Of a stretch of DNA of 64,000 nt, positions 41,242 to 54,812 are shown piece by piece. Source of the stretch: Aureispira anguillae. GTDB taxonomy: Bacteria > Bacteroidota > Bacteroidia > Chitinophagales > Saprospiraceae. The stretch covers positions 3,095,716 through 3,159,715 of the forward strand of contig NZ_AP026867.1 of NCBI RefSeq assembly GCF_026000115.1, in the 5' to 3' direction. The notes under the pieces were generated by a model. That model was given only the letters and a program-made list of their open reading frames with translations. It ran no database searches and was not told the origin of the DNA. Position 1 is the stretch's first letter. The number at the start of each line of letters is the position of its first letter. A program made the translations under genes and the position numbers.

Positions 41242-42510
41242 TTAGACCAAAAAATGAAACAAATCAGGATGGTGATTTAGATATTGTCCAAAGAATTTTT
41301 TTGTCTTCATACGCTCAACCAAAGGCGCCAAATCAATTTTATTTTTTAATTCAATACCAACCATTGCAGGTCCTTTTATGCGATTATTTTTTTTCATATA
41401 CTGAAAATAAACAATGTCATCTTGGGGACCCAATACCTGAATTAAAAACTCACGCAAAGCTCCTTCTCGCTGTGGAAAATTGACAATAAAATAATGCTTT
41501 AACTCTTCATACAACAAGGCCCGTTCCTGAATCTCTTCCATTCTAGCAATATCATTATTTCCTCCACTAACCACACAAACAACGATCTTGTTTTTTATTT
41601 CATCTTGTAACAACTGCAAAGCACTAATACTCAAAGCTCCTGCTGGCTCTACCACCATAGCTTCCTCATTGTATAGTTGCAACATGGTTTTACAAATCAG
41701 CCCTTCGGGAATTGTCAGTATTCGATCCAAAGACGTTTGGCAAATATCAAAGGTATACTTCCCCACCTGCTTAACCGCTGCTCCATCTACAAATTTGTCT
41801 ATCTGTTGAAGCGAACGAACTTCTTTTTTTTGAAGTGCCCAAGACATAGATGCCGCACCTGCTGGCTCTACCCCTATAATTTTGGTTGTAGGACTCAGCA
41901 TTCTAAAAACAGAAGAGACCCCTGCCGCCAAGCCGCCACCTCCTACGGGTAAGATTAAATAATCGATGTGCTCAGAGCTGTCTTCCAAAATTTCCAAAGC
42001 AACCGTTCCCTGCCCTTCAATAATCTTAGGGTCATCAAAAGGGTGAATAAAAGAGGCGTTTGCTACTTTGCAGTGAGCCCTTGCCATCGCCAAACTATCG
42101 TCAAAAGTGTCTCCCACCAATTGGATTTCAACAAATTTCCCCCCAAACATTCGCACTTGATTTACTTTTTGTTGAGGTGTTGTTAGGGGCATAAAAATAT
42201 GCCCGTTTATCTTCAATTGTTGACAGGCATAAGCTACCCCTTGAGCATGGTTGCCAGCACTTGCACAAACCACCCCTTTTGTCAAATCTTGTTTTGTTAA
42301 CGTTGCGATTTTATAATAAGCTCCTCTCAATTTGTAGGAACGAACAACTTGTAAATCTTCTCTTTTTAGCCCAATTTTTGCCCCGTATTTTTCTGCCATA
42401 CCCTTGGGATAACTGAGGGGGGTATGCAAGGCTATCTTTTTAACCAGAGAGCGAGCATGCTCAACATCAGATAGTTTGGGTTTATATTTTGGAGAGCGAA
42501 TTGTATTCAT
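41242..42510 (-). CDS. ilvA: threonine ammonia-lyase (threonine dehydratase)
   Basis: 422 aa. PLP Lys60 lies in VRSYKLRGAYYK; SAGNHAQGVAYA and PVGGGGLAAGV bind PLP. The C-terminal part (about 330-422) is a single ACT-like regulatory domain, shorter than the two of E. coli IlvA, a common form in Bacteroidota and Firmicutes. It deaminates threonine to 2-oxobutanoate, the Ile precursor. It is the last gene of the ilv operon, 122 bp after ilvC. The motif AACGGAGTAATGTT (42532-42545), also present near ilvD at 48141-48154, lies just upstream of its start. Confidence 0.95.
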   Translation of the reverse strand: MNTIRSPKYKPKLSDVEHARSLVKKIALHTPLSYPKGMAEKYGAKIGLKREDLQVVRSYKLRGAYYKIATLTKQDLTKGVVCASAGNHAQGVAYACQQLKINGHIFMPLTTPQQKVNQVRMFGGKFVEIQLVGDTFDDSLAMARAHCKVANASFIHPFDDPKIIEGQGTVALEILEDSSEHIDYLILPVGGGGLAAGVSSVFRMLSPTTKIIGVEPAGAASMSWALQKKEVRSLQQIDKFVDGAAVKQVGKYTFDICQTSLDRILTIPEGLICKTMLQLYNEEAMVVEPAGALSISALQLLQDEIKNKIVVCVVSGGNNDIARMEEIQERALLYEELKHYFIVNFPQREGALREFLIQVLGPQDDIVYFQYMKKNNRIKGPAMVGIELKNKIDLAPLVERMKTKKFFGQYLNHHPDLFHFLV

Positions 42511-42632: not shown

Positions 42633-43673
42633 TTATTTGGCTCTCAGTTCTCTAACAGTTTTTCCTGCTTGCCAAAGCTCACTTGCATTAATTTCAGCAA
42701 GTTCCAATTCTAGATTTTTTCTATAATTTTCTTTTTGGTTTGCTTCAATAACAATCGCCGCTTCTTTGCCACTAGCAACGCTAGCATACAAATCTTCAAA
42801 CAATGGCGTATTAAGATCTCTAAATTTATTTTTCCAATCCAAGGCACCACGTTGAGCGGTAGTTGAGGTATTGGCAAACATCCAATCCATCCCCTTTTCT
42901 GCTACCAAAGGCATTAAACTCTGTGTCAATTCCTCAACGGTTTCATTAAATGCCTCTGAAGGGCTATGTCCATTCTTGCGCAAGACATTGTACTGAGCCT
43001 CAAACAAACCTGCCAAAGCTCCCATTAGCATCCCTCTTTCGCCTGTTAAATCAGAATAAACTTCTTTCCTAAAATCCGTTTCAAACAAATAACCAGAACC
43101 TATTCCAATGCCCAATGCCAAGGCTTTTTCCAATGCCTGACCAGTAGCATCTTGAAAGATTGCATAACTAGAATTTAAGCCTTTCCCCTCTACAAACAAA
43201 CGGCGCAATGAGGTACCAGAGCCCTTGGGCGCTACCAAAACCACATCAATGTCTTTAGGAGGGATAATATTTGTTTGTTCTTTATAGGTTACCCCAAATC
43301 CATGGGAAAAATAAAGCAGTTTTCCAGCAGTAAGAAAGGGTTTAATGACTTTCCATTGGTCAATTTGCCCTGCATCAGAAAGCAAATACATTACAACACT
43401 TGCTTTTTCACAGGCTTCTTCTATAGAAAACAGTGTTTTGTCTGCAACCCAGCCATCACCAAGCGCTTTGTCCCAGCTCTTTGACGCTTGGCGTTGCCCA
43501 ACAATCACATTAAAACCATTGTCTCTAAGATTGAGTGCTTGCCCTGGACCTTGTACTCCATAACCAATCACGGCGATGGTTTCATTTTTTAAGGTTTCCA
43601 ATGCTTTTTTTAGTGGAAATTCTTCCCTAGTTACAACGGTTTCTTCTACAGTCCCGAATTTTAGCTTTGCCAT
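42633..43673 (-). CDS. ilvC: ketol-acid reductoisomerase
   Basis: 346 aa. The NAD(P)H-binding motif GYGVQGPGQALNLRD sits at about residues 38-52; the knotted C-terminal region contains DLTGERGMLMGAL (with metal-binding Asp and Glu) and ETVEELTQSLMPL. It converts acetolactate and acetohydroxybutyrate to dihydroxy acids for Val/Leu and Ile. It is transcribed after ilvN; the 298-bp gap between holds the 212-bp foldback element. Confidence 0.95.
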   Translation of the reverse strand: MAKLKFGTVEETVVTREEFPLKKALETLKNETIAVIGYGVQGPGQALNLRDNGFNVIVGQRQASKSWDKALGDGWVADKTLFSIEEACEKASVVMYLLSDAGQIDQWKVIKPFLTAGKLLYFSHGFGVTYKEQTNIIPPKDIDVVLVAPKGSGTSLRRLFVEGKGLNSSYAIFQDATGQALEKALALGIGIGSGYLFETDFRKEVYSDLTGERGMLMGALAGLFEAQYNVLRKNGHSPSEAFNETVEELTQSLMPLVAEKGMDWMFANTSTTAQRGALDWKNKFRDLNTPLFEDLYASVASGKEAAIVIEANQKENYRKNLELELAEINASELWQAGKTVRELRAK

Positions 43674-43971: not shown

Positions 43972-44496
43972 TTAATTAATTTCTTGCAAATAGTCACTTA
44001 GAGATCGCATAGGTTTTGTAATGGAAACCCTTCCTGAACGGGCAAACTCTAGCACTCCTATTGGAGCTAATAATTCTAAAAAAGCCTCTGTCTCTTCCCT
44101 ATACCCTGTTTTTTCAAGGATGGTATACTCTTGAGAAATGACCAATACTTTTGCATGGTGCTTCCGAAGAATAGAAGCAGTATCCACTTGGCTAAAATCA
44201 GCCGTTCGCAATTTATACAAGGCAACCTCCTGAAAGATTGTCTCTTCATCCGTGTGATAAAAAGCTTTAAAGACAGTTACTAATTTTTCTAGTTGCTTGA
44301 CGACCTTCATGACTTCTTCTGTCGTAGCCATTACAACAATGGTATAGCGATAAACATCCTTTAGCTCACTCTCAGAAGTGGTTAAACTTTCTATCTTTAA
44401 CTGGCGCCGACTAAACACCATCTGCACTTTACTTAGAGCGTCGATTAGATCCTCCGTAAAAACGGAAATGGTAAAACGCTTCATAATTTTATTCAT
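43972..44496 (-). CDS. ilvN: acetolactate synthase small (regulatory) subunit
   Basis: 174 aa. An ACT domain occupies the first 75 residues (TISVFTEDLIDALSKVQMVFSRRQLKIESLTTS is the family's opening pattern, at residues 8-40), followed by the C-terminal regulatory domain common to IlvN/IlvH. It binds Val and controls IlvB. ATG at 44484 (MKRFTISV) is a second possible start. It is 9 bp downstream of ilvB and surely translated with it. Confidence 0.93.
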   Translation of the reverse strand: MNKIMKRFTISVFTEDLIDALSKVQMVFSRRQLKIESLTTSESELKDVYRYTIVVMATTEEVMKVVKQLEKLVTVFKAFYHTDEETIFQEVALYKLRTADFSQVDTASILRKHHAKVLVISQEYTILEKTGYREETEAFLELLAPIGVLEFARSGRVSITKPMRSLSDYLQEIN

Positions 44497-44505
44497 TTAA
44501 AAAGG

Positions 44506-46254
44506 TTATGAATTGGGTTCTAATAATATCTCAGAAACAGCATAGCCTGTAGGAATCATAGGAAATACATTATCCTCTTGCCCTACGACTACTTCTAATA
44601 AATAAGCTCCATCATGCTGCAACATTTCTTCAACTGCTTTAGGTAAAGATTCTCGTTCTGTAATTCGCTTTCCTGCTATTCCATACGCCCCTGCCAATTG
44701 TATAAAGTCAGGACTACTAATACTGGTTTCAGAATAGCGCTTTTCAAAAAACATTTCTTGCCATTGGCGAACCATCCCCAAGTAGCTGTTGTTCAAAATA
44801 ATAATCTTAACCTCCAATTGTTCTTGCTGTATCGTAGCCAGTTCTTGTAAGGTCATTTGAAAACCACCATCGCCTATAAAAGCAATAACAGTGCGATTGG
44901 GGTTGCCCAATTTTGCCCCTAGAGCAGCAGGCAACGCAAAGCCCATTGTACCTAAGCCTCCACTAGTAATGTTACTTTTGGATTGTTTAAACTTAAAGTA
45001 CCGAGCTGCAACCATCTGATGCTGCCCTACATCTGTTACCAAAATAGCATCTTGCTTACTGCACTCTGAAACAAGGTGCACAACCTCTGCCATGGTCATC
45101 TTTGCTTTAGTGGGATACAACTGATCTTGAATAACTTTTTCATATTCGACCTGTTCTAAGACCGCAAAACTTTCTAGCCATTCTGCATGTAAGTTCACTG
45201 CGACCAATGCTGTCAACGCAGAAAGACTCTCTTTGGCATCTCCCAAAACAGGCAAGTGAGCATAAACATTCTTATTGATCTCAGCAGCATCAATTTCCAA
45301 ATGAATAACTTTGGCTTGTTTGGCATAACGATTTAAATCCCCAGTCACTCGATCATCAAAACGCATCCCTACAGCAATCAATACATCACATTCATTGGTC
45401 TTAATATTAGCGGCATAGTTGCCATGCATCCCTAGCATTCCTACATTAAGTCGATGATCAGAGGGCAAAGCAGACAAGCCCAACATCGTCCAAGCAGTAG
45501 GGGCATCTATTTTTTCTATAAACTGCTTAAGTTCCTCCTCCGCATTCGCCAAAATAACCCCCTGTCCTACCAAAACCAATGGCTTTTTTGCCTTATTAAT
45601 AAGTTTTGCAGCCAATTCCACCTGCCTAGCATCCAGTTGAGGCTTAGGTTGATACGTTTTTACTGTTGTACAAGATTGATAATCCATTTGTAAGTGGTCA
45701 AATTGAGCATCTTTCGTAATATCAATTAATACTGGTCCAGGTCTTCCAGAACGAGCGAGATAAAAAGCTTTAGCCAGTACTTGAGGAATATCGGCCGCAG
45801 TTGTAATTTGGCAATTCCACTTTGTAACAGGCATAGAAAGGTTAATCACATCCGTTTCCTGAAAAGCATCTGTTCCTAACAAGGAAGAATGAACCTGCCC
45901 TGTAATGCAGACCAGTGGCGTACTATCAATAAATGCATCTGCTAAACCAGTAATCAAATTAGTGGCTCCAGGACCTGATGTCGCCAAACAAACCCCTACT
46001 TTCCCAGTCACACGAGCATAGCCCTGTGCAGCGTGTATCGCCCCTTGTTCATGTCTAGTTAAAATATGTCTCAATTCCTCCTTATATTCATGCAGTGCAT
46101 CATAGACAGGCATTATGGCACCTCCAGGATACCCAAATAAGGTGTCAACGTTTTCTTTTAGGAGTATTTTCAGAATTGCTTCTGCCCCTTTTATTGATGT
46201 TTTGGGAGCGCTATTTTTTTTTGCTTTTCGTTCTAATAAAATTGCTTTTTCCAT
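44506..46254 (-). CDS. ilvB: acetolactate synthase large (catalytic) subunit
   Basis: 582 aa ThDP enzyme. It shows the catalytic Glu in LTRHEQGAIHAA, the GATNLITGLADA region, the middle FAD-type domain, and the ThDP/Mg motif GDGGFQMTLQELATI ending in NNSYLGMVRQWQ. It joins two pyruvates, or pyruvate and 2-oxobutanoate, as the first common step of Ile, Val and Leu synthesis. It works with the ilvN subunit encoded next. Confidence 0.95.
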   Translation of the reverse strand: MEKAILLERKAKKNSAPKTSIKGAEAILKILLKENVDTLFGYPGGAIMPVYDALHEYKEELRHILTRHEQGAIHAAQGYARVTGKVGVCLATSGPGATNLITGLADAFIDSTPLVCITGQVHSSLLGTDAFQETDVINLSMPVTKWNCQITTAADIPQVLAKAFYLARSGRPGPVLIDITKDAQFDHLQMDYQSCTTVKTYQPKPQLDARQVELAAKLINKAKKPLVLVGQGVILANAEEELKQFIEKIDAPTAWTMLGLSALPSDHRLNVGMLGMHGNYAANIKTNECDVLIAVGMRFDDRVTGDLNRYAKQAKVIHLEIDAAEINKNVYAHLPVLGDAKESLSALTALVAVNLHAEWLESFAVLEQVEYEKVIQDQLYPTKAKMTMAEVVHLVSECSKQDAILVTDVGQHQMVAARYFKFKQSKSNITSGGLGTMGFALPAALGAKLGNPNRTVIAFIGDGGFQMTLQELATIQQEQLEVKIIILNNSYLGMVRQWQEMFFEKRYSETSISSPDFIQLAGAYGIAGKRITERESLPKAVEEMLQHDGAYLLEVVVGQEDNVFPMIPTGYAVSEILLEPNS

Positions 46255-46352: not shown

Positions 46353-48029
46353 TTAACTAAGATCTGTCGTACAACCTTTGGAAGCAGAAGAAACCGTTTG
46401 AGCATATTTCCACAAATACCCCCTTTTAACAGAACAAGAAGGCAAGACCCAATTGGCTTTTCTTTTTGCTATTTCTTCGGCTGTTAAATCAACAGCAATT
46501 GTATTTTGGATGGCATCAATTATAATTCTGTCACCATCTTTTAATAAGGCAATGACTCCCCCCTCAAATGCTTCTGGGGCAATGTGCCCAACCACAAAAC
46601 CATGCGTCCCCCCTGAAAATCTTCCATCTGTAATCAAAGCAACCTCCTTTCCCAAACCTGCCCCCATGATAGCAGCAGTAGGTTTCAGCATTTCAGGCAT
46701 TCCAGGCCCTCCCTTTGGACCAACGTAGCGAATAACAACAACCGTCCCTTTCTTAATTTTTCCCTGAGCAATGGCAAAATTAGCCGCTTTTTCGCTGTCA
46801 AAAACTTGAGCTAACCCCTCAAAATACTCTCCTTCTTTGCCTGTTATTTTAGCCACAGCACCTTCAGAAGCAAGATTTCCATACAAAATTCGAATATGTC
46901 CAGATGCTTTGATGGGATTGGATAATGGCTTGACAACATCTTGTTCAAAAGTTAATGAAGGGACCATTTCAAGGTTTTGAGCAATGGTCTTTCCTGTAAT
47001 GGTTAGACAAGATCCATCCAACAGCCCCTGTTCTAACAAATACTTCATAACAACAGGAACGCCACCTATGCTGTGCAAATCCTCCATCAAATATTTCCCA
47101 CTCGGTTTTAAATCTGCTAAGAATGGTGTTGTATCACTAATACGCTGAAAATCATCAATAGTCAAATCTAATTCCAAGGTTCTAGCCATTGCCAAAAGAT
47201 GTAAAACAGCATTGGTTGAGCCTCCTAAAACCGTAATTAAACGCATTGCATTTTCAAACGCTGCTTTTGTCAGAATATCCCTTGGTTTAAGGTCTTGCTC
47301 TAACAATTGATACATTTGTAGTCCAGCGGCTTGACATTCTATCTTTTTTTCTTCGCTCACAGCGGGATTTGAAGAAGAGAATGGCAAACTAATGCCTAAT
47401 GCTTCTATAGCCGCAGCCATGGTATTGGCGGTATACATCCCCCCACAAGATCCTGCTCCTGGGCAAGCTTTTTGAACAACCTGCTTGAAGTCTTGCTCTG
47501 TAATTGTTCCTCCTATCTTTTCTCCCAAAGCCTCAAATGCAGATACAATATCTAGTTTTTTGCCAACATGGCAACCACTGGCTATCGCCCCTCCATAAAC
47601 TAAAATTGCAGGACGATTTAGCCGAGCAAAGGCTAACATGGCTCCAGGCATGTTTTTGTCACAGCCCACTACTGCAATTACAGCATCATAAGCCATTGCT
47701 TCTACAACCGTTTCTATGCTATCTGCAATAATTTCTCTAGAAGGCAAAGAATAACGCATACCCAGCGTTCCCATAGAAATTCCATCGCTGACACCAATTG
47801 TATTAAAAATAAGCCCCATTGCATCTGTTTCTTGAACACCTTTTTTTACCTCTTGGGCTAAATCATTTAAATGCATATTACAGGGGTTTCCTTCATAACC
47901 TGTACTCACAATACCAACTTGAGGTTTTTTGAGGTCTTCTTCTGTTAAACCTATTGCATGAAACATAGCTTGTGCAGCAGGTTGGGTTGGGTCTTGGGTA
48001 ACTCGCTGGCTGTACTTATTTAATTTCAT
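46353..48029 (-). CDS. ilvD: dihydroxy-acid dehydratase
   Basis: 558 aa. Cluster-ligand cysteines are seen in [18 protein letters not shown] and [37 protein letters not shown] closes the active site (about residues 465-485). It dehydrates dihydroxy acids to the 2-oxo acid precursors of Val/Leu and Ile. It is second in the operon, 160 bp after ilvE; that gap holds a repeat (48048-48149). Confidence 0.95.
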
Positions 48030-48189: not shown

Positions 48190-49074
48190 TTAAAAAATAC
48201 AAAGTGGTTCTATCTCTAAAACCTTGCGCTGATAAGCTCTAAATAGCTGATAACCTAGGGTATCCTCCCATTTTAATTGAAATGGAACCTTATCCAAACT
48301 AGTAATGCCTTTTATGCCTGTAATAGTACCTGTAAAAAAAGCACCATCGGCTCCCCTTACTTCATCCGCTGTAAAATGTTCTTCTTTTAGGTCAATCTCT
48401 AATTGCTCGCATAACTCCAATACCGTAGCACGGGTAATTCCAGCAAAAATATCTTTGGTAGGGCTTGTATAAAGCACATTATCTTTTTCATAAAAAAAGT
48501 TAGCACTTGTCCCTTGGGCAACATATCCATTTTTATTGAGCAAAAGCGCTGCATCAAAACCTTTACGCTTGGCGTGATTATCCATAAATTTAGAGCTAGC
48601 ATAAACTCCTGTCATTTTGGATTCAACAGGAAATATTCTATGATTAGGACATGGATATGGAGAGGTCATCAGCGCAAGTCCTTTATTTTCGACCAATTGA
48701 TCCCAAGGCCAAGCCACCAACAAAAGATGTGAATTAAGAGCAGAATTTGACGCTTCTCCCCAATACACATAGGAACGAATATAAGCATCCTGCAACTTGT
48801 TTTTTTCGATCAACTGATACATCAACTGAATTAAATCATCTATGGAATAAGAAAAATCAAGCCCCATTTTTTTAGTTGAATTGAACAGTCGTTTACAATG
48901 TTCATGAGCTTTAAAAATAGCCAGACCTTCTGCTGTTTGATAAGAGCGAACACCTTCAAAAATAGCATTGTGTTCTCCCAATAATTTATGGAAAAAGGAA
49001 CGCTGCACTTCTGCGTTCCTTAACCATTGTCCATCTAAGAACATTAGGGAATTTTGGTTGAGATGCATATTCAT
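48190..49074 (-). CDS. ilvE: branched-chain amino acid aminotransferase (class IV)
   Basis: 294 aa from the ATG at 49074 (a TTG at 49086 in frame is a weaker choice; ATG at 49068 is also possible). Fold type IV PLP enzyme: FEGVRSYQT near residue 38, the PLP-Lys segment VESKMTGVYASSK, ALLLNKNGYVAQGTSANFFYE, then ITRATVLELCEQL. It transfers amino groups in the last step of Ile, Val and Leu synthesis. Relatives include D-alanine aminotransferase and ADC lyase, but position as first gene of the ilv operon and the BCAA-rich leader upstream favour IlvE. Confidence 0.92.
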   Translation of the reverse strand: MNMHLNQNSLMFLDGQWLRNAEVQRSFFHKLLGEHNAIFEGVRSYQTAEGLAIFKAHEHCKRLFNSTKKMGLDFSYSIDDLIQLMYQLIEKNKLQDAYIRSYVYWGEASNSALNSHLLLVAWPWDQLVENKGLALMTSPYPCPNHRIFPVESKMTGVYASSKFMDNHAKRKGFDAALLLNKNGYVAQGTSANFFYEKDNVLYTSPTKDIFAGITRATVLELCEQLEIDLKEEHFTADEVRGADGAFFTGTITGIKGITSLDKVPFQLKWEDTLGYQLFRAYQRKVLEIEPLCIF

Positions 49075-49122
49075 ATTTTTATACAAATTATATTTTTACA
49101 AAAATTATTATTATTCAAGCCA

Positions 49123-49166
49123 AAAAAAAATCCTTCTCAATCTAAACGATGAGAAGGATTTTTTTT
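49123..49166 (-). terminator. ilv attenuator 2: terminator hairpin before ilvE
   Basis: 17-bp perfect arms (49123-49139 and 49150-49166; core TCCTTCTCA/TGAGAAGGA) with a 10-nt loop; read on the minus strand it ends in nine U. It is 48 bp before the ilvE start codon. Its 5' arm (minus TTCTCATC, 49148-49155) can instead pair with GGTGAGAA (49184-49191), which overlaps the stop codon of leader peptide 2, giving an exclusive antiterminator. Confidence 0.88.
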
Positions 49167-49186
49167 GTAACACACAAAACCTGTTC

Positions 49187-49258
49187 TCACCCTGTTTGGA
49201 CGAAAAGAATAATAATGACCACAATAATTTGCTGTACACTAAGTATTCTGTTTTGCAT
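49187..49258 (-). CDS. ilv leader peptide 2 (23 aa, Ile/Val-rich)
   Basis: ATG at 49258 to TGA at 49187-49189. The 23-residue peptide starts MQNRILSVQQ and then has IIVVIIIL (residues 11-18), a run of eight branched-chain residues; 12 of 23 residues are Ile, Val or Leu. It lies directly before the terminator of attenuator 2. Its stop codon overlaps the antiterminator strand. Ribosome stalling on the Ile/Val codons during starvation would leave that strand free and allow readthrough into ilvE. It has no strong ribosome-binding site. Confidence 0.82.
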   Translation of the reverse strand: MQNRILSVQQIIVVIIILFVQTG

Positions 49259-49293
49259 GATAATTTTTATTTCTTAAGTTATTTTCCAAAAAA

Positions 49294-49323
49294 AAAAGCC
49301 TCCTTTTAAGTAAGGAGGCTTTT
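49294..49323 (-). terminator. ilv attenuator 1: upstream terminator hairpin
   Basis: AAAAGCCTCCTT (49294-49305) and AAGGAGGCTTTT (49312-49323) form a 12-bp stem with a 6-nt loop; on the minus strand it is followed by ten U (49288-49297). The 5' arm (minus CCTCCTT, 49312-49318) can instead pair with AGGGAGG (49349-49355), which overlaps the stop codon of leader peptide 1. Confidence 0.9.
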
Positions 49324-49353
49324 ATATTTTATAAGTATATAAACAAATCCTCC

Positions 49354-49416
49354 CTAAAATAATTTTAGTGATACAACATTAATAATAATGATAATATTTG
49401 ATTTGTTTAAAGACAT
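49354..49416 (-). CDS. ilv leader peptide 1 (20 aa, Ile-rich)
   Basis: ATG at 49416 to TAG at 49354-49356. Residues 8-12 are five consecutive Ile (ATT ATC ATT ATT ATT), followed by Asn and two Val, and three Leu elsewhere; ten of 20 residues are branched-chain. It lies 21 nt after the predicted start of transcription and just before terminator 1. The AGGGAGG antiterminator strand overlaps its stop codon, as in attenuator 2. Confidence 0.82.
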   Translation of the reverse strand: MSLNKSNIIIIINVVSLKLF

Positions 49417-49443
49417 TTTTTTCTGTTTTTGTATTTGATAAAT

Positions 49444-49474
49444 CAAAGCTATTAATAAAAATAGAAAAGCGCAA
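49444..49474 (-). promoter_or_regulatory. ilv operon promoter
   Basis: On the minus strand TTG (49472-49474 as CAA), 20 nt, TAGCTTTG (49444-49451 as CAAAGCTA): a full Bacteroidota promoter. The start is expected near 49437, ahead of both leader peptides. No comparable box was found between terminator 1 and leader 2. Confidence 0.72.
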
Positions 49475-50341
49475 TTTTTTTTATTCTTTTATTTATTTTT
49501 TTTTCAAGATGCTCCAACACAAGCTAAATCAGCTATTTATTTTGTCTCTCTAGCAACACATATAATAAGTTATTACAAAACTTATTTCTTTTCATTTTGC
49601 TCAATTAGCCTACCTATACCTAAGGATAATTGGAACTATTCTTCTTTTTTGTTAACAATCTCATGAACGTAGTGCTCTCAACTTGCTGGTTCACTACCAA
49701 AGGGCGTTAAAAGCCCAATCAATCCATGGGAATTCAAAAACACATCCACATATAAAACACTATCTACCAACCTATTAAAGCAACAAAAAAACGTTGAACA
49801 ACATAAAAACAATACAAAACTGGTTTGCATTAGCTATCCATCAAATCTAACTTTGTGAAAAATTAAGAAAAGAAGCTGCCCTACGAAAAGGGTAAAATTA
49901 CTAATGACCAGAAATATTTTGTATTCCCTATAAACAAGAATATTCTTTACCCAATCAAAAGAAGAAAAGCTTTACGAATCATATTTAAAACCAAATTTAA
50001 TGAAAAAATCACTCTTGGTATTTACCACCCTTATTTATTCCATCAATTCGACAACAACTAACAAGTTAAATATTATATAGTTACTAAAATATTCAATGAT
50101 AACTAGCTTTATCCTTTTAGCTAGAATATCAATTGTGTCTTTGCCTCTATTTACAGCAAAAAAGCTATTTAATATTTTGTTTTTAATCGTTCTCCTCTAG
50201 CATTCGCATCAGAATATTTCACATTAATAAATTTTAATTATTGTAGCCTATCAATACTTTACCCCATCAATAGGATGGCGTAAAGCTGAGTATCTATTTG
50301 TTTGCTACAAACAAAAAACAACTTTATTTACTGTTATTATT
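49475..50341. other. long AT-rich region between the ilv promoter and the T9SS gene
   Basis: No ordinary gene. It holds GTAGTG/CACTAC (49669-49674 and 49692-49697) around a diverged copy of the CCAGCAAG repeat, and a tiny open frame at 50000-50080 (plus; 26 aa, starting MKKSLLVFTTLIYSIN) that looks like a lone signal peptide. An 8-bp hairpin TTTGTTTG/CAAACAAA (50297-50304 and 50308-50315) lies just before the start of the next gene. Confidence 0.5.
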
Positions 50342-52513
50342 ATGAAAAAACTAACTTTATTTAAGTGCATCCTATTCCTTATGCTTTTTGTGAGCAATAC
50401 AAATGCACAAACAAAACTTTGGGGAGTTGGTGCCCCAAACGGTCAAGCTGCTGCTGAATTTCAGACCAATTTTGTGCAATCAACAACTGCTGCTAATTAT
50501 TCTGTTACAGAATGGACAGCATTGTCAATTAGTGATAGTAGCAACTCAACTGGTAGTGGGGCGAACATTCCTGGTGCAGCTTATTGGCAAAGAAGTACAA
50601 CAGGTCTTTCACAAGGAGCCTACGCTATTTCTGAGCCTGCAAAATCTAATTCTGTAGCAAATGGCGTCGCTATTTTTGATTCTGATTTTTTAGATAATGG
50701 CGGAGTAGCAGGCGCATTTGGTACAGGAAGCTCTCCTGCTTATCAAAAAGCCGAACTAATTTCACCTAGAATGGATCTAACAGGAGCAACAGACTCTGCA
50801 ATCATCGTTGAGTTTTACTCTTACTATCGCCATTTTAATGTAACAGAATATTCTGTTTCTGTCTCTGTTGATGATGGTGTTAGTTGGAGTTCTGCATTTG
50901 ACATCAAATCACTACAATTTGCCCCCAGAAATAATCCTGTAGATGGAACGCTTCGTGTACTCTTTCCAAACGTTACAACAGGAGTATCAAACTTAACTCA
51001 ATGTCGTGTAAAATTCACCTTCAATGGGCGTTATTATTTTACAATGCTAGATGATATTTTAGTAGAAACAGCACCAGAATATGACATTGCTATTGGTCTT
51101 CCAAGAGAGGTTGTATCGGGAAGTCATTACGAAGAAATAGGGGATATTGTTCGATTAAGTAACAATACACATCGACCATTGATCAACGTTGATCCCACTA
51201 ACTTGGCAGACTGGATATGGGGAGCAAAAGTAGTAAATTATGGAACAAAAACCATTCAAGCAGCAAATGCTCCTAGCATCAAGTGTTCTATTGATTTTAC
51301 AGATGCATCAGGAGTGACTACTTATGGCGTTTATTTGGACACTCTAGTAGGAGGACCAACGGATTCTATTTCTGCAAATGACCCGCTAGTTGGTGTTACC
51401 ATGATCGATCATTTGAGAGAACTTGACTTTATTATATCCCATGGTGCAGGAACTTATAATGTCACTTATTGGGTAGAACACAATCTCACCGACGGAAGCC
51501 CTGTAAACGATACTGTTAAGCATGATTTTGTGATTACAGATAATCAAGGCGGAACAACATCTTATTATCTTACAAAATCAAAAGTATCCCCTTTAAATAA
51601 CAGAGTTTATGGAGAGGATCGATTTACAATTGATCAACTCGCTTCTTTTGAGTATGGTTCAATCTACAGCTTCCCCCGTGGTGCAAGTGATAGTATTAAA
51701 ATTGATTCTGTAGATTTTGTTTATTATTTAGCGGGAAATTTTACAGGACCAGCCAATCAAACGGTATTTGTTAATATTTATGAATACGTTGATGGTTCCA
51801 ATGGAGGAACTTCAAATGGAAGTATAGAAGGAGCTGAATTAACAAAGATTGCCTTTGCAGCTGTCCCACTAACAGGTCTAGGGACAACAGTACCAACAAG
51901 AAGCTATACTTTGGCAACAGCGACCAACTTTGTTAATGCTACAGGTACGGGTTCTGTGCCTAGCTTGAAGGATAACGCCTATTATTATATAACATTAGAA
52001 TTAAACCCATCTCAAACAGGTGGTTCACCATTATTGGGTACAAGTAATTCTCCCTTTTTAGCAGAAACTCGTTTAAATTATGCGCTTAATAGAGCTGGAA
52101 CGTCAAGTGCTGGTCCCGTTAGTGCTACTACTGCAAAAGTAGTAAATAGTTCTGGCTCCATAGGTTTTTATGATAGCCTTTCTGACAATCACAAGGTCCC
52201 TTCAATAGGGATACACCTAAGTGCTTCGCCACTCAATTTAACTAAAATTACTAAAGTAGCAGCCAATGCAAAACTGGAGGTCTACCCCTCCCCAACTACA
52301 GATTACTTAACAATTGATGTTCAATTTAATGCCCCTACAGATGTACAATATGTTATAACAGATGTCTCTGGGCGTGTTGTTTATTTGAATCAAAGTAATT
52401 CTGTTAGCAAAGAAGAACATAAAGTAGATGTTAGTATGTTACCTTCAGGTGTTTACTTTATTGCAGCAAAAACCACTCAAGGTGTTTCTACCAAACGCAT
52501 TGTAAAAAAATAA
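50342..52513 (+). CDS. large exported protein with T9SS type A C-terminal sorting domain
   Basis: 723 aa. Signal peptide (FKCILFLMLFVSNTNAQ). The middle is beta-rich and Thr/Ser/Gly/Asn-rich, with sequences such as PRMDLTGATDSAIIVEFYSY and WVEHNLTDGSPVNDT that resemble immunoglobulin-like or MAM-like surface domains; no catalytic motif is recognised. The last 75 residues (AKLEVYPSPTTDYLTIDV to ASKTTQGV-type KTTQGVSTKRIVKK) are a Por_Secre_tail, the signal for type IX export and surface attachment. A terminator follows the gene. Function: surface or adhesion protein is the likely class, unproved. Confidence 0.85.
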   Translation: MKKLTLFKCILFLMLFVSNTNAQTKLWGVGAPNGQAAAEFQTNFVQSTTAANYSVTEWTALSISDSSNSTGSGANIPGAAYWQRSTTGLSQGAYAISEPAKSNSVANGVAIFDSDFLDNGGVAGAFGTGSSPAYQKAELISPRMDLTGATDSAIIVEFYSYYRHFNVTEYSVSVSVDDGVSWSSAFDIKSLQFAPRNNPVDGTLRVLFPNVTTGVSNLTQCRVKFTFNGRYYFTMLDDILVETAPEYDIAIGLPREVVSGSHYEEIGDIVRLSNNTHRPLINVDPTNLADWIWGAKVVNYGTKTIQAANAPSIKCSIDFTDASGVTTYGVYLDTLVGGPTDSISANDPLVGVTMIDHLRELDFIISHGAGTYNVTYWVEHNLTDGSPVNDTVKHDFVITDNQGGTTSYYLTKSKVSPLNNRVYGEDRFTIDQLASFEYGSIYSFPRGASDSIKIDSVDFVYYLAGNFTGPANQTVFVNIYEYVDGSNGGTSNGSIEGAELTKIAFAAVPLTGLGTTVPTRSYTLATATNFVNATGTGSVPSLKDNAYYYITLELNPSQTGGSPLLGTSNSPFLAETRLNYALNRAGTSSAGPVSATTAKVVNSSGSIGFYDSLSDNHKVPSIGIHLSASPLNLTKITKVAANAKLEVYPSPTTDYLTIDVQFNAPTDVQYVITDVSGRVVYLNQSNSVSKEEHKVDVSMLPSGVYFIAAKTTQGVSTKRIVKK

Positions 52514-52575
52514 CTGCTTATACTTCATACTCCCCAAAATACCATGTGCTTTGTAAACATTAAATTCTTTGATTT

Positions 52576-52609
52576 ATCCCATAACACCATACCGCTGGTG
52601 TTGTGGGAT
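52576..52609 (+). terminator. terminator of the 723-aa surface protein gene
   Basis: 14-bp stem ATCCCATAACACCA (52576-52589) / TGGTGTTGTGGGAT (52596-52609) with one G-U pair and a 6-nt loop, followed by five T. Confidence 0.82.
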
Positions 52610-52793
52610 TTTTACTAAGATTGATAGCCTCCAAGGTTATAATGCATTATTCCATACGTTCTGATATAAAACCCCTTATAGTCTTGTGTTTAATTTTTAT
52701 ATAACATATCTTTATAAGGTGTTCCTCAAAATTTATTGTCACCTACTTTTATAGCATTAAAGTTCTGTTGAACATTTAATTAATATCAGGAAC

Positions 52794-54812
52794 ATGTATA
52801 CACACTTAAAATATATTATTCTACTCACCTTTATTTATTGTAGCCCAATACTCGCTCAAAACCACTCTTTTTCTTGGGCAAAACAAGCAGGGGGCAACAA
52901 AGCAGATGAAGGAAAATCTATTGCAATTGATAACGATGGGAATGTCTACACCACTGGCGAATATTCCTCCAACGGAGATTTTGATCCTGGCACAGGAGTG
53001 TTTAATTTAACGACAAACGATTGGAATTATCAGATTTTTGTGCAAAAATTAACCCCCGATGGCGATTTAATTTGGGCAAAAAGTTTTGGGGGGAATGGTT
53101 ATGACCATGGCGAAAAAATTAGACTAGATGCGGATGGCAATATCTATGTTACAGGTTGGTTTGAGAATACGGTTGATTTTGCTGGGTTTACAAAGACCGC
53201 CAGTGGTTTAAGAGACATTTTTTTACTAAAAATGTCCTCTTCTGGCACAGTGCTTTGGGTAGAAACTTTTGGAGGAGCTGGTTATACGACTCCTAATGAT
53301 TTAATTATAGATGATGCCATGAACATCTATATGACTGGAGGATTCTCCGTATCAGCAACTTTTGGTTCGCAAACATTCACCTCAAATGGTGCACACGATG
53401 CTTTTGTGCTAAAAATGGATCAAGGAAGAAATTTACAGTGGGTCAATACTCTAGGTGGCAATGGCTCTGACATTGCCATTTCGGTAGAAGTTGATCGCAA
53501 TAAAAATGTCTATACAACAGGAGCTTTTACTGGTACCGTTGACTTTGACCCTAGTTCAAATAATAGTTACTACCTAAGTTCCACTTCTTCTGTAGAGGAT
53601 ACCTACATTCAAAAATTAGATTCGGCTGGTCATTTGGTATGGGCAAAATCTTTTGGGGCAGATTGGGAAGATCATCCTTATGATATTCACCTTGATAAAA
53701 ATGAAGATTTATACATTATTGGTCGCTTCGGTTTGACCATCGATTTTGATCTTGGTCCTAATACATTTTTTTTAACAGGCAATGGAAGTTTGGATGCTTA
53801 CCTTTTAAAAATAGATACGGCAGGACAATTTATTTGGGCTAAAAGCTGGGGGGCATCAAGTGATGATTATGGTATGTCCGTAACAACGGACGATGAAGGT
53901 AATGTTTATACAGGGGGGTATTTCTTTGGCTTTGTAGACTTTGACCCTGGTCCTAACGAACGCTCTCTTTGGTCTAAAGGTAATGGAGATTTTTTTCTCA
54001 CCAAACTTACTTCGAATGGTGATTTTTTGTGGGCAAAATCAGGTGGAGGTCCTGTTTTTGATATTGCTTGGGAAATTGCTTTAAACCCCAAAAAGGAATT
54101 ATATATGGTGGGAGAATTTACCTTTACAGGAAATTTTCATACCGACTTTGGAACCTATAATATGACAGCAAATAGCAATGGACATTCCGATGTTCTTTTA
54201 TTAAAACTAGACTATTGCGCCCCTTCTGACTCTACCTTGGTGGTTGCTAGTTGCGAACCTTATTTAGCTCCTAATAATCAGACTTACGATTCTAGCGGTC
54301 AGTATATCGTTCGTTTGTCCAATGCAAAAGGCTGTGATAGCATTCTTACCATCAACCTAACTCGGTATGAAATACCAGTGTCTCTTTTTTCAAGAAATGA
54401 TTCTTTATTTGCGGTTACGGATACTAATCTTACTTATAAATGGTACGATTGTCAGTCACAAACCTATATCAACAATGAAACCGCTCCATTTCTACGACCA
54501 AGTAATTCTGGCAGCTATGCAGTAGAGGTTTCTAATGGTCAATGTTCGGTACGTTCTTCATGCTTTTTATTAGATTTAAATCTCGATTTGTTAATTTATC
54601 CAAACCCAACTGCGGGAAATATTTCTATTAATAAGAATCATCATGGAGAAATTACGGCTAAGGTTTATGATGCCATTGGAGAACTCATCGGTACAGCACT
54701 ATTAGACGATCAAATTACTACGTTAGATCTTTCAAGGTATCCATCAGGGGTTTATATGCTTGTTTTAGAGCATCAACAAGGGATTAGTACGCATAAAATA
54801 ATAAGGGAATAA
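52794..54812 (+). CDS. SBBP propeller-repeat surface protein with T9SS sorting domain
   Basis: 672 aa. Signal peptide (YIILLTFIYCSPILAQ). Residues about 25-475 are repeats of roughly 55-60 aa with the SBBP pattern, for example IAIDNDGNVYTTGEYS, LDADGNIYVTGWFE, EVDRNKNVYTTGAFTG, HLDKNEDLYIIGRFG and TTDDEGNVYTGGYF, each followed by D(F)DPG or FG/KSFG units; this predicts a beta-propeller. After a Cys-containing linker region (about 480-600) a Por_Secre_tail (LLIYPNPTAGNIS to the end) directs type IX export. Together with the preceding gene it suggests a cell-surface role. No enzyme motif is visible. Confidence 0.9.
   Translation: MYTHLKYIILLTFIYCSPILAQNHSFSWAKQAGGNKADEGKSIAIDNDGNVYTTGEYSSNGDFDPGTGVFNLTTNDWNYQIFVQKLTPDGDLIWAKSFGGNGYDHGEKIRLDADGNIYVTGWFENTVDFAGFTKTASGLRDIFLLKMSSSGTVLWVETFGGAGYTTPNDLIIDDAMNIYMTGGFSVSATFGSQTFTSNGAHDAFVLKMDQGRNLQWVNTLGGNGSDIAISVEVDRNKNVYTTGAFTGTVDFDPSSNNSYYLSSTSSVEDTYIQKLDSAGHLVWAKSFGADWEDHPYDIHLDKNEDLYIIGRFGLTIDFDLGPNTFFLTGNGSLDAYLLKIDTAGQFIWAKSWGASSDDYGMSVTTDDEGNVYTGGYFFGFVDFDPGPNERSLWSKGNGDFFLTKLTSNGDFLWAKSGGGPVFDIAWEIALNPKKELYMVGEFTFTGNFHTDFGTYNMTANSNGHSDVLLLKLDYCAPSDSTLVVASCEPYLAPNNQTYDSSGQYIVRLSNAKGCDSILTINLTRYEIPVSLFSRNDSLFAVTDTNLTYKWYDCQSQTYINNETAPFLRPSNSGSYAVEVSNGQCSVRSSCFLLDLNLDLLIYPNPTAGNISINKNHHGEITAKVYDAIGELIGTALLDDQITTLDLSRYPSGVYMLVLEHQQGISTHKIIRE

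Follow-up and report, generated by a model that had tools for sequence, protein, structure and literature searches.

What controls the branched-chain amino acid operon ilvEDBNCA of Aureispira anguillae, and does the leader in front of it hold one checkpoint or two? Leader and operon lie on the minus strand of the stretch analyzed here (64 kb of contig NZ_AP026867.1, positions 3,095,716 to 3,159,715), which we call the window and on whose whole length all positions below are counted. In textbook accounts of leader-peptide attenuation, each operon has a single checkpoint. The leader in the window is like the classical attenuators of E. coli trp, his, ilv, and leu and of Corynebacterium ilvBNC in combining an open reading frame (ORF) of product codons, an antiterminator opposed to an intrinsic terminator, and sensing by ribosome position; however, whereas those operons have one attenuator each, here two complete ones stand in series. 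A preliminary description of this locus had proposed such a tandem, and the proposal is supported by the anatomy of the leader, by folding as a function of ribosome position, by the matching of antiterminators to terminators, and by 19 tandem leaders in 265 scanned regions. Judging from sequence and modeling, we consider it very probable that ilvEDBNCA is under two ribosome-mediated transcription attenuators in series, both responding to the same signal, the charging of the Ile and Val tRNAs.

All elements of the preliminary description (promoter motif, both ORFs, both antiterminators, and both terminators) were found where it had placed them (Table 1). Both ORFs carry, in predicted translation, a run of codons for the products of the operon; in leader 1 of the window, Val-Val additionally precedes the antiterminator. 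U-tailed terminators are predicted twice before the first gene, and in each module the modeled antiterminator competes for the terminator's 5' arm and would be masked once a ribosome has reached the stop codon. Taken alone, the hairpins reach −17.4 kcal/mol for terminator 1 (z = −4.65 versus shuffles) and −20.1 kcal/mol for terminator 2 (z = −6.00), and the duplexes of antiterminator and 5' arm, each with a G-U pair by eye, reach −12.5 kcal/mol (z −4.7) in module 1 and −10.1 kcal/mol (z −2.8) in module 2. The claim of one promoter ahead of both attenuators agrees with the single motif seen and the lack of a motif between the modules; TTG-N20-TAGCTTTG is presumably of the Bacteroidota −33/−7 type. 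When the 64-kb window was scanned for Ile/Val-leader attenuators, the minus strand returned these two modules only, and the plus strand gave two matches, of which one mirrors terminator 1.

Table 1. Predicted leader elements and operon genes in the window
Feature	Coordinates	Strand	Remarks
Promoter motif TTG-N20-TAGCTTTG	49444..49474	(−)	TTG 49474-49472, 20-base spacer, TAGCTTTG 49451-49444; start expected near 49437
Leader ORF 1, MSLNKSNIIIIINVVSLKLF	49354..49416	(−)	Five consecutive Ile; TAG stop; putative
Antiterminator strand 1, AGGGAGG	49349..49355	(−)	Overlaps leader ORF 1 stop (TAG)
Terminator 1 hairpin	49297..49320	(−)	U run to 49288; predicted
Leader ORF 2, MQNRILSVQQIIVVIIILFVQTG	49187..49258	(−)	Eight consecutive branched-chain residues (IIVVIIIL); TGA stop; putative
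Antiterminator strand 2, GGTGAGAA	49184..49191	(−)	Overlaps leader ORF 2 stop (TGA)
Terminator 2 hairpin	49130..49159	(−)	U run to 49122; predicted
ilvE, branched-chain aminotransferase type I	48190..49074	(−)	First operon gene; ATG at 49074
ilvD, dihydroxy-acid dehydratase	46353..48029	(−)	NCBIfam TIGR00110 above cutoff
ilvB, acetolactate synthase large subunit	44506..46254	(−)	NCBIfam TIGR00118 above cutoff
ilvN, acetolactate synthase small subunit	43972..44496	(−)	NCBIfam TIGR00119 above cutoff
ilvC, ketol-acid reductoisomerase	42633..43673	(−)	NCBIfam TIGR00465 above cutoff
ilvA, threonine ammonia-lyase	41242..42510	(−)	NCBIfam TIGR02079 above cutoff

The leader as a whole is strongly structured: its 352 nucleotides (nt) fold at −82.5 kcal/mol, far below the −53.7 ± 4.6 kcal/mol of 100 shuffles (z = −6.2; none of the 100 as low). 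We then modeled the position of the ribosome by folding only the RNA from its leading edge, placed 15 nt downstream of the A-site codon's first base, through the last base of the terminator 5' arm; the real outcome also depends on the order of co-transcriptional folding. In module 1, the top pairing probability between antiterminator and arm stayed at 1.00 as the A site moved from the start codon across the Ile/Val codons and was 0.00 at the stop; in module 2 it was 0.87-0.98 ahead of the Ile/Val run and 0.96-1.00 inside the run, again with 0.00 at the stop. The fall took place over the last three codons, stop included, in each module. Since a modeled stall opens and completed translation closes both modules, the leader follows the logic of attenuation. 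RNA polymerase, starting near 49437, would thus pass two checkpoints. With amino acids plentiful, the ribosome would reach the stop codon and cover the antiterminator strand, and the terminator would form; with amino acids scarce, it would stall on the Ile/Val run, and the antiterminator, left exposed, could pair with the 5' arm. As ilvE would be reached only when both terminators fail, overall read-through should be close to the two individual values multiplied, so that basal expression would be lower and the response steeper than with a single attenuator; if read-through is independent, a 10% leak per module would become 1% for the pair.

Is the doubled leader confined to this genome? The region searched was the 1.5 kb preceding ilvD, or as much of it as the contig contained (for G004 and G007, two relatives from the window's genus, the 600 nt preceding ilvE). 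A match required an ORF of 9 to 45 codons with an ATG start and at least four Ile/Val in eight residues, together with a U-tailed hairpin whose first base falls no more than 12 nt ahead of the ORF end and no more than 70 nt beyond it. Shuffled controls kept the dinucleotide make-up. The family sample held 99 genomes with ilvD, of which 95 were scanned and four with cut genes were left out; together with G004 and G007 this gave 97 regions. Here, 50 regions held at least one Ile/Val attenuator and seven a tandem, compared with 0 of 1,940 shuffles (20 for each region). From 145 genomes with ilvD in the phylum sample, 88 were scanned, 5 had already been counted, and 52 were left out, nearly all with an ilvD less than 48% identical; attenuators were found in 38 regions (three tandem; 0 of 880 shuffles), and none occurred in the 15 regions with the most distant ilvD. 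A sample of named organisms, the best 80 of at least 594 candidates ranked by likeness to the query, yielded attenuators in 47 regions and one single match in 800 shuffles; its nine tandems come from an uneven sample. With repeats dropped, the 265 regions hold 130 distinct leaders, 111 single and 19 tandem. The doubled Ile/Val attenuator therefore appears, on the sequence evidence, in scattered relatives as well: the named hosts are Tenacibaculum caenipelagi, Gaetbulibacter, Aquimarina, Lutibacter, Myroides, and two Chryseobacterium, and the remaining tandems come from a Cyclobacteriaceae metagenome-assembled genome (MAG), an Ignavibacteriae MAG, and ten further genomes, the window's own included. 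Single and double leaders can share one genus name, with a tandem in Lutibacter L162 and singles in L169 and L184, and a tandem in Aquimarina L129 and a single in L127.

A laxer terminator search for missed tandems added three pairs (L014, L066, and L150) that were unconvincing by eye; this search was noisier, with matches in 39 of 708 shuffles (one with two) and in 23 of 177 regions on the opposite strand. A first contig scan, anchored on ilvE, found nothing. In family f41, from another class of the phylum, 17 of 20 scanned genomes carry a single leader (L268-L288), mostly of the form ...VIIxVIG..YRxGK with the terminator AGCCTTxCC... immediately before ilvD. Two of the 80 named records are titled as other phyla (L128, a Thalassovita MAG, and L165, a Candidatus Planktophila MAG); in both, ilvD resembles that of Bacteroidota and is preceded by a single Ile/Val leader, and the two are perhaps mis-binned contigs.

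The pairings on which attenuation would depend were evaluated in 110 modules from the family and named regions, with duplicates dropped (three identical leaders removed). The antiterminator duplex had a median of −11.15 kcal/mol and a median z of −2.8, with z < −1.64 in 87 modules, and its antiterminator was centered −12 to +18 nt from the stop codon in 95% of modules, compared with 34% when the leader was shuffled. Antiterminators are matched to their own terminators: the summed energies amount to −1304.7 kcal/mol for own pairs versus −871.9 ± 23.6 over 2,000 re-pairings, so that a third of the energy is lost on swapping, and within tandem leaders the antiterminator favors its own terminator over its neighbor's in 29 of 32 comparisons. 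The signature seen in the window, open on stalling and closed at the stop, recurred in 99 of the 110 modules (five unscorable ones counted as misses) but in only 46 of 440 with shuffled leaders. Among tandems, 35 of 38 modules show it, and 16 of the 19 leaders show it in both modules.

These results bear on another explanation, in which the Ile/Val ORFs arise by chance in AT-rich DNA and the hairpins act as ordinary terminators or stabilize RNA. It is true that ATT codons are cheap in such DNA, and the 110 leader ORFs use ATT at 499 of their 682 Ile positions. Nevertheless, the 3,620 dinucleotide-keeping shuffled regions gave one single match and no tandem, the antiterminators are matched to their own terminators, and no minus-strand ORF of at least 80 amino acids that terminator 1 could end was found in 49087-53000. 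We regard this explanation as highly improbable.

Several observations weigh against the reading of two attenuators in series. The thermodynamic fold of the whole leader favors both terminators, so that antitermination must rely on the order of folding during transcription. Single matches occurred on the opposite strand in five of the 97 family regions. One by one, antiterminators and terminators match more loosely than in sum, as just 58 of the 110 terminator arms rank their own antiterminator among the top tenth; three of the 19 tandem leaders lack a clean switch in one module; and the 1:2 helix, in which the start of the ORF pairs with the antiterminator segment, is modest (z < −1.64 in 36 of 110, median z −1.06). 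Even a relaxed promoter motif precedes ORF 1 in just 5 of 16 tandem leaders, those of the window and G004 being two of the five. Moreover, the near relatives G007 and G106 have a single module of the module-2 type, and on an ilvD tree of 111 rows (FastTree) the 15 tandem rows need 13 changes, while shuffled labels need 14.2 on average and are as low in 83 of 500 cases. Scattered tandem status and single-module near relatives together indicate that the second module is not strongly kept. With 13 changes for 15 tandem rows, a count that strict scanning may inflate, we rejected the idea that the tandem is one ancient trait; it is recurrent but unstable.

The same comparisons raise the alternative that module 2 is the sole working attenuator and module 1 a decaying or newly arisen copy of little effect. 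The preliminary description had suggested checking related genomes for conservation of both modules, and the answer from the three nearest relatives that have an ilv leader is divided: G004 keeps both, with leaders MHTKLNIIIINIIISLN and MQNRTINLQNIIVIIIVIFIQIE in the same order, while G007 and G106 hold the module-2 type only, suggesting that module 1 either arose in the pair formed by G004 and the window's own genome (G000, 7.8 Mb) or disappeared around that pair. TGAGAA and CTTCTCA are conserved in all four. The single-module relatives, the fluctuation of tandem status on the tree, and the weaker hairpin of module 1 in 14 of the 19 tandem leaders are what this alternative would lead one to expect. 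Against it, module 1 of the window shows the same positional switch as module 2, and G004 retains module 1 with a matched change in both strands of the antiterminator duplex, where one U-A pair has become G-C (by eye). First modules also stand alone elsewhere: in 13 Flavobacteriaceae loci with two recurring terminator types, CCTTCC first and CCTGTATC second, both types occur in three, the first alone in four, the second alone in another four, and neither in two. We therefore think it unlikely that module 1 is idle, and retain two working attenuators as the preferred reading. By eye, the Flavobacteriaceae types look orthologous and fixed in order (both in L107, L132, and L162; first only in L110, L130, L169, and L184; second only in L111, L114, L122, and L133), and in the second type the UGA stop itself lies within the antiterminator. 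Within the window's genus (G000-G008), only three of nine genomes have ilvD at an E value of 1e-60; two of those lacking it measure ~7.4 Mb and are 99% complete, so that the pathway looks patchy.

Do the two modules read one signal or two? The preliminary description spoke of a logic gate, which holds in the sense that both modules must open, but not in the sense of two signals, as the peptides are of like composition: across the 19 tandem leaders, leader 1 and leader 2 have Ile fractions of.337 and.358, Val of.117 and.122, and Leu of.050 and.060. This match points to one signal read twice, and both modules most likely read Ile and Val, as predicted from their codons. Alternatively, the modules could sense different signals, for example Ile and Val, and form a two-input gate. 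In the window, leader 1 with its five consecutive Ile and leader 2 with Ile mixed with Val would fit such a gate, and there is a precedent in Salmonella mgtCBR, the closest named system, where one leader holds two leader ORFs, each with its own attenuator, sensing ATP and proline independently and additively through stem-loops unlike intrinsic terminators (PMC3641672). The window shares the two leader ORFs with an attenuator each but differs from mgtCBR in apparently reading one signal twice and in having two predicted U-tailed intrinsic terminators. Given the like Ile/Val make-up of the two peptides over the 19 tandem leaders taken together, and the Val-Val that leader 1 of the window carries besides its Ile run, the tandem does not appear to be of the mgtCBR type, and we judge a two-input gate to be quite unlikely.

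An internal promoter feeding module 2 was also considered. In 16 of 94 regions, compared with 1.8% of shuffles, TTG-N17-23-TANNTTTG occurred in the 140 nt that precede the first leader ORF. Between the modules, this motif was found in none of 16 tandem leaders and TANNTTTG by itself in none of 19, on which ground the internal promoter was rejected; the test is a weak one, given how seldom the motif arises by chance and its absence upstream of ORF 1 in most tandems.

Why should an operon read one signal twice? In the window without a ribosome, module 1 is open in the model (antiterminator probability 0.99) and module 2 is closed (0.11), so that the protector (1:2) pairing is seen in module 2 and not in module 1. 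In the 19 tandem leaders the probability without a ribosome averages 0.76 for module 1 and 0.47 for module 2, and it is higher in module 1 in 12 leaders and lower in 3. The asymmetry depends on how much upstream RNA is folded (Wilcoxon p 0.016 with 30 nt, 0.17 with 15 nt, and 0.04 with 5 nt), the leaders are non-independent, and it is only suggestive. It is tempting to speculate, although we hold it to be doubtful, that tandem same-signal attenuators are a recurring branched-chain design of Bacteroidota with such a division of labor. If so, the pair would reject both transcripts that were never translated and those made in times of plenty, a steep, low-leak switch built from ribosomes alone. 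Tandem riboswitches for the same ligand, such as tandem thiamine pyrophosphate (TPP) riboswitches, have been termed pseudo-cooperative and should respond more steeply, in a more “digital” fashion (PMC9481103). They are a working analogue, as independent same-signal switches in series, but sense through ligand-binding aptamers, whereas the leader in the window would sense through the translating ribosome. Two attenuators in series that read the same amino acids would be their peptide counterpart and could show how low leak and a steep response come from translation alone. With singles and doubles both occurring in nature, at times in records that share a genus name, what the second module costs and gains is open to experiment.

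Control of the operon by a T-box or riboswitch was rejected, as Rfam returned only a tRNA at threshold in the window, and no T-box was among 59 weak matches up to an E value of 10. Module 1 matched Thr_leader at 30.1 bits (E 0.00089) and Phe_leader at 31.0 bits (E 0.0025), both under the gathering score of 55 bits and at most a likeness of shape. Peptide attenuation seems to be in use elsewhere in the same genome, which has a single His leader (MLLSNAHTHHHFHHLLHGQSS...) before hisG (L198) and a single Trp leader (...AWWWTTSLRWRE) before a trpE-like gene (L214), with a U-tailed hairpin behind both leaders. In scans covering all 16 HisG, 18 of 30 TrpE, and 8 of 30 LeuA loci, made with no shuffle control, one matching attenuator each was found at 12 of 16 hisG and 15 of 18 trpE-like loci, none of them tandem, and none at the 8 leuA loci. 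Because the his and trp leaders are all single, doubling may be particular to the Ile/Val operon, within this small sample of near relatives.

The preliminary description had guessed that the tandem form is undescribed. Consistent with this, no tandem branched-chain attenuator was found among the matches listed for openly licensed literature on tandem or double attenuation, ilv attenuation, or attenuation in Bacteroidetes. The comparative studies of Vitreschak and colleagues (2004) and Lopatovskaya and colleagues (2010) could contain a tandem of this kind. The mechanism itself and clues to peptide attenuation in Bacteroidota are already in print. For Flavobacterium psychrophilum, of the same phylum, there are clues for leader-peptide attenuation, the same class of mechanism, at amino acid operons, and the section that describes them mentions no tandem layout (PMC9723704). 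Bacteroides thetaiotaomicron has small ORFs recalling leader peptides (PMC7366714).

Behind the leader, the genes follow in the order ilvE-ilvD-ilvB-ilvN-ilvC-ilvA, and all six would presumably be co-transcribed. The first is of an unusual type: it matches NCBIfam ilvE_I with an E value of 4.1e-58 and 196.9 bits, under the curated cutoff of 245.55, and falls under the cutoff of all 18 NCBIfam models listed for ilvE. Homologues at an E value of 1e-60 or better occur in only 5 of 60 genomes, its own counted. Lastly, seven family genomes (L019, L029, L030, L056, L058, L077, and L080) have, by eye, two CGTAAG/CGTAAC motifs in the ~200 nt from terminator to ilvD, and in most of them the leader peptides end in GGWY or similar; these motifs are possibly a second conserved leader element.
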